A DNA stretch of 35,094 nt from Candidatus Nezhaarchaeota archaeon (GTDB lineage Archaea; Thermoproteota; Methanomethylicia; Nezhaarchaeales; B40-G2). Both the position numbers and the translations under genes were made by a program. Of the stretch, positions 5,887-25,165 are shown one piece after another. Location of the stretch: the NCBI GenBank assembly GCA_026413605.1, contig JAOAKM010000008.1, positions 1-35,094 of the forward strand, in the 5' to 3' direction. A model generated the notes under the pieces. The model was not told where the DNA came from, made no database searches, and was given only the letters and a program-made list of their open reading frames with translations. The first letter of the stretch is position 1. Each line of letters begins with the position of its first letter.

Positions 5887-5943
5887 AAAAATGAGCCCTA
5901 GGCATAGGCCTAAGAATACCTGCTCTAGCAGGATCGTGGAGGT

Positions 5944-5960
5944 GGAGGTGCCTAGGCATA
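5944..5960 (+). promoter_or_regulatory. Strong ribosome binding site and ATA initiation codon of hel308
   Basis: GGAGGTG (5944-5950) is an exact complement of the conserved archaeal 16S rRNA 3' end. It is followed after seven bases by ATA (5958-5960), which begins the frame coding for the canonical Hel308 N-terminus. The same CCTAGGCATA decamer that covers the spacer and the ATA also occurs upstream at 5897-5906. Confidence 0.6.
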
Positions 5961-22529: not shown

Positions 22530-23288
22530 TCACTGACCGGAGCGGTAGGGACAAGAGCAGCCTCGCTCAGCTGGAATAAGCGCTACGGCCTCCTCTAAGG
22601 ACAAATATACCTTGTGCTTAATGCTATCCATGACCCTAGCGACTTCTCCAGCTGTCACCATGCTCTGCATGCCCGCGGCCATGTTAGTAACTAGGCAGAG
22701 GACAGCGTAGCAAAGCCCTGCTTCACGGGCGAGGGCGGCCTCAGTGGCCACGGTCATACCTACCACGTCGCCTCCAAGCACTCTAATAGCCCTTATCTCA
22801 GCGGGGGTCTCAAAGCGAGGGCCCTCAGTACATGCATACACCCCTCCATCCCAAACCTCAAGCCCAGCCTTCTTAGAAGCCTCTATAAGTACTGTCCTTA
22901 GCTCAGGACAGAACGGCTCGCTCATATCTACATGAACAACCTTAGGTCCTTCGTAGAGGCTCGGAGGCCTAGACTTAGCTAAGTCTAGGAAGTCGCTAAC
23001 AACGACCGCCATCCCAGGGCGGATGTGCTCTCTTAGTGAGCCTACTGCTCCAGTCGCTAAGACCCTCTCCACCCCAAGCCTCTTGAGCGCTAAGACGTTA
23101 GCTCGGTAGTCCACCCTATGTGGAGGAACAGCGTGCGTAAAGCCATGCCTAGGCACGACCGCTACTTCTACCCCTCCTAATTTAGTTAGAGAAGTCTCTA
23201 CACTGCCGAATCGAGTAGATACTCTCACGTTCCTCCCACGCTTAGCTAACTCTTCAACCCCACTTCCTGCAATTATCCCTACCTTCAG
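22530..23288 (-). CDS. Methylthioadenosine/methylthioinosine phosphorylase family, apparent CTG start
   Basis: Purine nucleoside phosphorylase-family enzyme of 252 residues. It shows the phosphate-binding GSG, PRHGFTHAVPPHRVDYRAN, GAVGSL, TEGPRFETPAEI, and GMT-TEAALAREAG segments, plus a C-terminal CSC. Family members start M(K)xGIIxGSG. That segment is encoded here upstream of the first usable GTG (23228), and no ATG, GTG or TTG precedes it in frame. A CTG at 23288 gives (M)KVGIIAGSG, with GGAGGTGG seven bases upstream, so I infer a CTG start. The base-recognition segment is TNMAAG rather than TDYD, favouring a 6-oxopurine substrate. It overlaps the DUF373 gene by 35 bases. Confidence 0.87.
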   Translation of the reverse strand: MKVGIIAGSGVEELAKRGRNVRVSTRFGSVETSLTKLGGVEVAVVPRHGFTHAVPPHRVDYRANVLALKRLGVERVLATGAVGSLREHIRPGMAVVVSDFLDLAKSRPPSLYEGPKVVHVDMSEPFCPELRTVLIEASKKAGLEVWDGGVYACTEGPRFETPAEIRAIRVLGGDVVGMTVATEAALAREAGLCYAVLCLVTNMAAGMQSMVTAGEVARVMDSIKHKVYLSLEEAVALIPAERGCSCPYRSGQ

Positions 23289-24396
23289 CCCTCTTCCACC
23301 TCCTAATTAAAGCGAGGGCTACAAGGAGAGAGCTGTATACAGCTACAACTACCGTCGTCCATAAGAGGAGGGTTAGGGGTGTTTGAAGTGGGTTTAAGAG
23401 GAGGTCGGCTACCTGCCTAAGGAGTAGAGCGAGCAAGACGCAGAAGATAGCGCTTAGCACCTCACGGCTAATAGGCTTCCCCTCGAGGTACTTATCTATC
23501 CCGTGTCCAATCAGTAGCACTAAGAGGGAGGCCATAATCACGTCTACGTTGTATACCTTAGTTATGAAGGTGGGCACGTTAGGCAGCGCCAAGAAAGCTC
23601 CCACGAGCCGAGGCACCTCAGCTATCTCAAAGCCCCCCCGATCAGCTATGTAGGAGGCCACAGCGGATGAGCCCAAGTAGATGGCCACGCTCAGAATGAT
23701 TATGGCTATGAGGGTGCTCATGAAGACTATGGGGGACGAAGACCAAGAACTAGCCAGCGCTCTATCTATGGAGAAGCCCTTAACGATTAGCGCCAAGCCA
23801 ACAATGAAGAGCAGGGCCACTCCAGCATAGTGCGCAAGCCCTAAGCTAGCGAGAATACCAGTCGCCACTAAAAATATCCCAGGTATCCCGACGAGGTAGG
23901 CAGAGTACCTAGGGTCCTCCAAGACCCTTCTGACGTACTTAGCTAATAGTAGGTAGGTCTCCTCAACGCTCCTAGACTGCCTAACGATGATCCTCCTTAT
24001 CGACACTATGGGGAGCTTTGACTGAATTAGCGGTATGACGTGTTCGTCGGCTGCGCCATCACTAACCACCACCGCAGCGTCAGCTGAGTATGCCTTTAAA
24101 GCTTCGTCAAGCTCCCTTGCAATCTTCAGATCGGCCTTAAGCCCTCCCTCTAGCACCCCTGCGAGTGTAACAAGCTCGCAGCTCACCCCCTCCTCTCTAA
24201 GCTTGTCTAAGACTTGGATAGCGGCGAAGAGGGCGTTCACATCAGAGTCGTCTGGTGAGGCCAAAGCGAAGCGAGTAGCAGCCTCTAAGTTAGCCTGCCT
24301 CCCAATAATCGGGGTCTTGGCGTTAGCCACCCTGCCTATGTCGTCGTCCCTGTCTACGTAAATAACGAGCACGCGCTGTCCAGCCTCCCTACTCAA
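23254..24396 (-). CDS. DUF373 family integral membrane protein
   Basis: An archaeal conserved family (COG2237) of unknown function. The N-terminal soluble part (about 155 residues) opens with VLVIYVDRDDDIG, a strand followed by an acidic cluster. It continues through PIIGRQANLEAATRFALASPDDSDVNA and DGAADEHVIP, all hallmarks of DUF373. The C-terminal half has six or more hydrophobic membrane segments. I prefer the TTG at 24396, which has GGAGGGTGG five bases upstream and overlaps the coiled-coil gene stop by eight bases. The GTG at 24405 directly abuts that site. The gene is inside a four-gene run and overlaps the phosphorylase start. Confidence 0.85.
   Translation of the reverse strand: MSREAGQRVLVIYVDRDDDIGRVANAKTPIIGRQANLEAATRFALASPDDSDVNALFAAIQVLDKLREEGVSCELVTLAGVLEGGLKADLKIARELDEALKAYSADAAVVVSDGAADEHVIPLIQSKLPIVSIRRIIVRQSRSVEETYLLLAKYVRRVLEDPRYSAYLVGIPGIFLVATGILASLGLAHYAGVALLFIVGLALIVKGFSIDRALASSWSSSPIVFMSTLIAIIILSVAIYLGSSAVASYIADRGGFEIAEVPRLVGAFLALPNVPTFITKVYNVDVIMASLLVLLIGHGIDKYLEGKPISREVLSAIFCVLLALLLRQVADLLLNPLQTPLTLLLWTTVVVAVYSSLLVALALIRRWKRAEGRDNCRKWG
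23286..23303 (-). promoter_or_regulatory. Strong ribosome binding site and CTG initiation codon of the phosphorylase
   Basis: On the minus strand GGAGGTGG (23303-23296) is followed after seven bases by CTG (23288-23286). The spacing equals that of the hel308 ATA. The site lies inside the DUF373 coding sequence. Confidence 0.6.
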
Positions 24397-25165
24397 TGGG
24401 GCCACCCTCCCTGCTGACCATGGACTCCATAAGCACCTTCAGCTCCTCTAACGTTACCCTCCCCCCTTCTCTAAGCCTCTCTAGGGCCCTCTTAGCTACT
24501 TCCTCCCTCCTCCTAAACACCTCAGCTACTCTCTCAGCCTCCCTAGCCATCTTCTCCTCAAGACTCCTCTCTAACTCAGTCTTAAGCGCCCTGACCCCCT
24601 CCCTAGCCTTGCTTACATGTTCCTTAGCCTCCCCGAGCTCCTCCTCAACCCTCCTTAGCTCCTCTTTAACTCGAGAGCCCTCCTCTTTTAGACTACGTGC
24701 TCTCTCAAGGCCCTCCCTCAACTTAGCCTTGAGCTGCTCCACAACCCTCAGCTTTCCATAAGCCTCGCTCCTCAGCTCTCTAGCCCTCCTCCACGCCCTG
24801 AGCTGGCTGACAAGCTCGGCCATCCTATCGACAAGCTCTTTCTCTCCCCTTCGACTATGCGGGCGTGTCTGATATTTCCACTCGAGTTCCTTGAGCTCCC
24901 TCTGAATAAGCTCTTCGTCTGCTAGCCTAGCCTCCAGCTCCTTAGCTTGCTTAAGCAAATTAGAGGCCTCGTTCCTTAGCCTAGCCACTTCTCTCTTAGC
25001 TTCCTCAACCTGCTTCAAATAGGCAGCCCTCTCTCCACGTATCCTCCTCAGCTCTTCCTTCAGCTTCCTCAGCTCAAGTAGTTTTGATTCTAGGCGCCTC
25101 TTAGAGCGCTTAAGCTCCCCCTCGGCCTCCTTGAGCTGGCTGGCTAGCTTAGCTAAGCGATCCAT
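24389..25165 (-). CDS. COG1340 archaeal coiled-coil protein
   Basis: A 258-residue, highly charged, almost wholly helical protein with long heptad-like stretches of Leu, Glu, Lys and Arg. A break in the middle reads LEWKYQTRPHSRRGEKELVDRM, which matches the L-E-W-K-x-Q-T ... E-K-E-L-V motif of COG1340. The family is broadly conserved in archaea and has no proven function. A C-terminal GRVTLEELKVLME helix may be a small capping domain. No membrane segment or ATPase head is present, so it is not an SMC or Rad50. Start ATG at 25165, one base after the M24 peptidase stop. Confidence 0.82.
   Translation of the reverse strand: MDRLAKLASQLKEAEGELKRSKRRLESKLLELRKLKEELRRIRGERAAYLKQVEEAKREVARLRNEASNLLKQAKELEARLADEELIQRELKELEWKYQTRPHSRRGEKELVDRMAELVSQLRAWRRARELRSEAYGKLRVVEQLKAKLREGLERARSLKEEGSRVKEELRRVEEELGEAKEHVSKAREGVRALKTELERSLEEKMAREAERVAEVFRRREEVAKRALERLREGGRVTLEELKVLMESMVSREGGPIE

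Follow-up and report, generated by a model that had tools for sequence, protein, structure and literature searches.

The window analyzed here is a whole stretch of 35,094 nucleotides on contig JAOAKM010000008.1 of a Candidatus Nezhaarchaeota archaeon. Its minus strand carries a gene for a nucleoside phosphorylase, directly upstream of which a gene for a DUF373 membrane protein is located (Table 1). DUF373 genes are also found near genes for S-methyl-5′-thioadenosine phosphorylase (MTAP) in many relatives.

The phosphorylase reaches 160.6 bits against PF01048 (gathering cut-off 25.1) and is therefore a member of the PNP/UDP phosphorylase superfamily; it is the one match to the family in the genome. 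With the S-methyl-5′-thioadenosine and thioinosine phosphorylases (TIGR01694 and PRK09136) it has the fold family, the GSG loop as well as the PRHG and GPRF motifs in common, but it scores under both curated cut-offs, just short of the MTAP model TIGR01694 (261.2 bits, curated cut-off 274.85) and also short of the thioinosine phosphorylase model PRK09136 (207, cut-off 223). The protein contains the residues EGPRFETPAE and TNMAAG, where GPRFSTRAE and TDYD are typical of MTAPs. These motif residues and the sub-threshold MTAP and MTIP scores suggest a 6-oxopurine as substrate, which would make the enzyme MTIP-like.

Read on the minus strand, the phosphorylase frame is bounded by a TAA (23309-23307), which is followed by TTA GGA GGT GGA AGA GGG CTG(23288-23286) AAG GTA GGG ATA ATT GCA GGA AGT GGG. 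Between this TAA and the conserved N-terminus KVGIIAGSG no ATG, GTG or TTG is present. The first standard start in frame is a GTG at 23228, which lies 20 codons downstream of the CTG and already behind the GSG loop. The alignment of the phosphorylase with the solved MTAP structures begins at about the residue after the proposed CTG start, so that with a start at 23228 both the first strand and the GSG loop would be lost. The CTG is located at a distance of seven bases from the Shine-Dalgarno (SD) sequence GGAGGTGG, and since the 16S rRNA of this genome has the 3′ end GGATCACCTCCT, GGAGGTGATC is the true SD target. On all of these points, i.e., the N-terminus encoded upstream of the GTG, the position of the CTG behind its SD and the loss of the GSG loop, the direct reading and the structural alignment agree with the preliminary description of this DNA. 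The CTG is one base from ATG, and a protein started there would have the N-terminus (M)KVGIIAGSGVEELAK.

Table 1. Features of the phosphorylase start, the hel308 ribosome site and the hairpin-insert loci. Positions refer to the window, except for rows with an L handle.
Feature	Position	Strand	Basis or remark
MTAP/MTIP-like nucleoside phosphorylase	22530..23288	minus	252 codons from CTG
First in-frame standard start (GTG) of the phosphorylase frame	23226..23228	minus	would remove the conserved GSG loop
DUF373 membrane protein gene	23254..24405	minus	PF04123
Proposed CTG start codon of the phosphorylase	23286..23288	minus	aligned with TTG of the sister genus; no standard start up to the conserved N-terminus
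Shine-Dalgarno sequence GGAGGTGG, seven bases 5′ of CTG	23296..23303	minus	complementary to 16S 3′ end
In-frame TAA, upstream bound of the phosphorylase frame	23307..23309	minus	direct sequence reading
Phosphorylase start region as assembled			GGGCTGAAG; TTG-bearing alternative GGGCTTGAAG
hel308 ribosome site, GGAGGTG + seven bases + ATA	5944..5960	plus	GGAGGTG 5944-5950, ATA 5958-5960
Hairpin-insert locus	L082, about 14371	minus	
Hairpin-insert locus	L076, about 3908	plus	
Further hairpin-insert loci (uS5, aIF5B, Cbf5, radical SAM gene)	L082/L076, L079/L075, L091/L115, L039/L128		

The sole close relative compared is G001, which belongs to another genus of the same family and whose phosphorylase shows 63% identity. 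Its start region reads GGTGGAAGCGGGC-TTG-AAG-ATA-GGT, that of the window GGTGGAAGAGGG-CTG-AAG-GTA-GGG, which places the CTG at the start position of its homologue. Codons 2-10 differ between the two genomes by five synonymous changes and one conservative V/I change, a pattern which indicates conservation at the protein level upstream of the GTG at 23228. In all 26 relatives with a scorable loop (32 loci in total) a standard start lies ahead of the GSG loop. The junction between the DUF373 gene and the phosphorylase gene is ...GGTGGAAGCGGGCTTGAAGATAGGTATAATAGCGGGTAGCGGG in G001 and ...GGTGGAAGAGGGCTGAAGGTAGGGATAATTGCAGGAAGTGGG in the window, which is one T shorter where the DUF373 stop and the phosphorylase start meet. 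In G001 the DUF373 protein ends with RWKRA∗, and its TGA stop overlaps the TTG start of the phosphorylase (TTGA). In the window, the DUF373 gene overlaps the phosphorylase by 34 bases, the CTG lies inside the final codons of the DUF373 frame, and the last ten of these codons (EGRDNCRKWG) are without counterpart in G001. The single missing T thus accounts for both the CTG start and the lengthening of the DUF373 gene with its overlap of 34 bases.

The aligned TTG in G001, the conserved N-terminus and the alignment with the MTAP structures support the CTG as the best reading of the phosphorylase start. It is very probable that the gene is translated from this CTG with the ordinary Met-initiator tRNA behind a near-perfect SD, one T having been lost relative to the sister genus; we infer initiation at the CTG, methionine as the first residue and a real deletion in this lineage. 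The loss of one T where the DUF373 stop and the phosphorylase TTG overlap would have changed TTG to CTG and extended DUF373 by ten codons. The near-perfect SD would put the CTG into the ribosomal P site, where it would be read by the ordinary initiator tRNA. Such a loss may have been tolerable since initiation at weak codons was already common in these archaea.

A second near-cognate start had been proposed in the window for hel308, at an ATA with the same ribosome-site geometry. The seven bases are as described, but counted from the GGAGG core the spacing is 10 bases for the phosphorylase and 9 for hel308, so whether the two spacings are identical is a matter of where the end of the SD is set. 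In G001, hel308 reads GTG GAG GTG CCT TCA ATA AAG in frame, whereas the window has GTG GAG GTG CCT AGGC ATA AAG, one base longer, which brings the GTGs out of frame and leaves ATA as the best-placed codon. Due to this one-base frame change and the in-frame GTG of G001, the ATA start of hel308 is plausible but weaker. In the region of the hel308 ribosome site (window 5896-5960), two copies of CCTAGGCATA lie 54 bases from each other and enclose a small hairpin (CCTGCTCTAGCAGG); this arrangement may be linked to the frame change.

The survey of near-cognate starts covered 779 kb of the own genome, 964 kb from the sister genus and two further genomes at 400 kb each, in a search for conserved genes with homology beginning upstream of every in-frame ATG, GTG and TTG. 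This wider scan of genome samples revealed further cases in essential genes. In the own genome, the clean ones besides the phosphorylase are eL34 at CTG and ABCE1 at ACG, both with ATG in G001, and uS9 at CTG in both genera. In G001, ACG starts were found for uS12, uL6, uS14 and a nucleotidyltransferase, which have ATG in the own genome, and for pantoate kinase (TTG in the own genome); CTG starts were found for uS9, LplA (ATG in the own genome), a DUF3303-like protein (GTG in the own genome) and a membrane protein (CTG/TTG). Weaker cases are hel308 at ATA in the own genome as well as an ABC ATPase at ACG and a further gene at CTG in G001. With the CTG of uS9 (L079:2645 and L115:2266, minus strand), one near-cognate start seems to have survived the separation of the two genera.

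For several of these genes a start further downstream would destroy the protein, since the distance to the next standard start is 33 of 54 codons in uS14, 42 of 91 in eL34 and 103 in ABCE1. The family models begin at the near-cognate codons (residue 3 at model position 3 of 54 in uS14, 3 at 3 in ABCE1 and 2 at 2 in eL34), and the length of uS14 is exactly that of its model. CoaBC of G001 was rejected as a CTG start, as a hairpin just upstream makes an intron more likely. The genes for citramalate synthase, TyrRS, a zinc-ribbon protein and an adenylate-kinase-like protein are without a standard start but also without a clean near-cognate codon and were excluded; ORFs within the 23S rRNA and upstream stretches conserved merely through an overlapping gene were discarded as well. 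In both genera, the citramalate-synthase-like gene (L081:9336 onward; L113, minus strand) has an SD ahead of an out-of-frame (T/G)TG, which could be due either to an intron or to a frameshift.

Among codons aligned with the standard start of a homologue near the N-terminus and preceded by an SD 7-11 bases from the GGAGG core, 17 of 19 were near-cognate by hand count, where about 18% would be expected (P about 1e-10); as the SD is part of this filter, it is not fully independent support, and one of the 17, CoaBC of G001, may reflect an intron. The 18% background is the share of near-cognates, including AAG and AGG, among other sense codons at aligned positions, and none of the 17 is AAG or AGG. 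The standard starts of the own genome comprise 140 TTG, 133 ATG and 70 GTG. An SD precedes 41% of the ATG, 61% of the TTG and 63% of the GTG starts (background 19%), and this higher frequency at weaker codons fits the idea of an SD compensating for a weak start. ATG accounts for less than half of the aligned starts, and about 1% of the testable genes start at ACG, CTG or, rarely, ATA, ATC or ATT.

The preliminary description had also proposed that this lineage tolerates unusual start codons behind a strong SD. The near-cognate starts of essential genes in both genera bear this out, but the tolerance is wider than the own lineage: in the same order, G002 shows two ACG starts (aconitase-X and one more) and one possible ATT; in the same class, a NusA-like gene of G009 starts at ATC; in the same phylum, S17e of G053 starts at ATA; and hel308 starts at ATA behind an SD in G016 and G018. 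A restriction to the family is thereby ruled out, with ACG and CTG predominating within it. A pattern search for uS14 in 300 genomes of the phylum gave ?TG in 22 of 25 matching genomes and ?CG in G001 as well as in candidate uS14 matches of two others. As a bacteriophage control, T4 was compared with RB49; this brought out the gene-60 split, which is known, and no near-cognate start among 105 genes, a number too small against roughly 1% to prove a difference in rate.

The missing T could be an assembly or consensus error, the true start then being a TTG that shares bases with the stop of DUF373, which is the arrangement in the sister genus. The layout of G001 with its TTGA overlap and the DUF373 end RWKRA∗ is one base away, one such error would explain the loss of both the TTG and this end, and the genome is an assembly of 147 contigs. 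However, when about 779 kb of the own genome were compared with G001 (about 964 kb; 175,647 residues aligned over 700 homologous stretches), no unexplained frameshift came to light in about 527 kb of aligned coding sequence, which limits errors to at most a few per Mb; the candidate frame breaks of the own genome were reduced to a scaffold gap, a tRNA-gene overlap and a paralogue pair sharing an alternative C-terminus. Per start codon, the frequency of near-cognate starts exceeds the prediction from this bound on indel errors several hundredfold, and most of the others are substitutions, which are free of the indel weakness. A sequencing error at the phosphorylase start is therefore possible but unlikely. 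It is even less probable that the gene is decaying or truncated, being started at the GTG at 23228 or not translated at all, with the N-terminus as a remnant. This GTG is indeed the first standard start, but its use would remove the first strand and GSG loop common to the solved MTAPs, the N-terminal codons are conserved at the protein level and the rest of the frame is intact at 63% identity. Moreover, ABCE1, uS14 and eL34 are in the same situation, and it is improbable that the cell could do without them.

A start codon made in the RNA, either when a bulge-helix-bulge intron is spliced out or through C-to-U editing (CTG to UUG, ACG to AUG), is about as improbable as decay of the gene, if slightly less so. 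CTG and ACG, the codons dominant in the family, are those which such editing could convert, but the ATA, ATC and ATT starts of other families are beyond it. Splicing of mRNA is likely in these genomes due to hairpin inserts in conserved protein genes of both; at the phosphorylase start, however, no hairpin insert relative to G001 was found in the bulge-helix-bulge test, but one base fewer instead. The genes for EF-2, uS5, aIF5B, Cbf5 and a radical SAM protein each contain a short insert with a hairpin, identically placed in the two genera and in most cases disrupting the frame. These inserts look like bulge-helix-bulge pre-mRNA introns; as of 2009, cbf5 alone had confirmed archaeal pre-mRNA splicing (PMC2738675). 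Splicing is a serious alternative where other genes of these genomes are broken, but the phosphorylase, lacking an insert, is no such case.

Discrimination against non-canonical starts by aIF1 is described for Sulfolobus in a statement cited within PMC6237735. In both family members, the own genome and G001, aIF1 is present and ordinary, which rules out an altered aIF1 as the cause and gives no hint of a special mechanism. An altered initiator tRNA finds no support in G001, where this tRNA is canonical with a CAU anticodon (AGCGGGG..CTCATAA..CCCCGCT). Based on the ordinary aIF1 and this tRNA, initiation by the ordinary machinery, anchored by the SD and with a relaxed choice of codon, is favoured over a new factor.

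Near-cognate starts are known in bacteria, e.g., ATT in infC of Escherichia coli, where they are isolated and often regulatory. The bacterial cases likewise combine a codon one base from ATG with an SD, whereas in these archaea about 1% of the testable loci start at ACG or CTG, and the genes concerned are ordinary essential ones. For archaea, a review names AUG, GUG and UUG as starts and only these three (PMC7531240). The SD-led initiation, the ordinary aIF1 and the canonical CAU initiator tRNA (of the sister genus) agree with this standard scheme, but CUG and ACG fall outside its set. In Methanosarcina mazei, Ribo-seq assigned CTG starts to about 5% of unannotated small ORFs (PMC11456600); CTG is thus likewise used in an archaeon, but the genes described here are conserved housekeeping genes, and ACG is used in addition. 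Full-text searches of an incomplete literature collection did not turn up any paper that describes ACG or CUG as the start of conserved archaeal genes.

It seems reasonably probable that this archaeal family, with weaker traces across the phylum, routinely starts essential genes (among them uS12, uS14, uL6, uS9, eL34 and ABCE1) at ACG or CUG while its aIF1 is ordinary and the initiator tRNA of the sister genus canonical, the codon identity being largely relaxed and the SD selecting the start. Common gene finders accept only ATG, GTG and TTG. With this restriction, ABCE1 and essential ribosomal proteins of these genomes would be cut short or missed, which would also distort marker-gene counts and trees. 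If initiation at ACG and CUG is confirmed, archaeal start selection would be looser than the AUG/GUG/UUG rule of the reviews. These archaea would then offer a system with an eIF1-type fidelity factor and SD-led positioning in which start selection could be studied, and a direct measure of how much codon identity an SD can replace.
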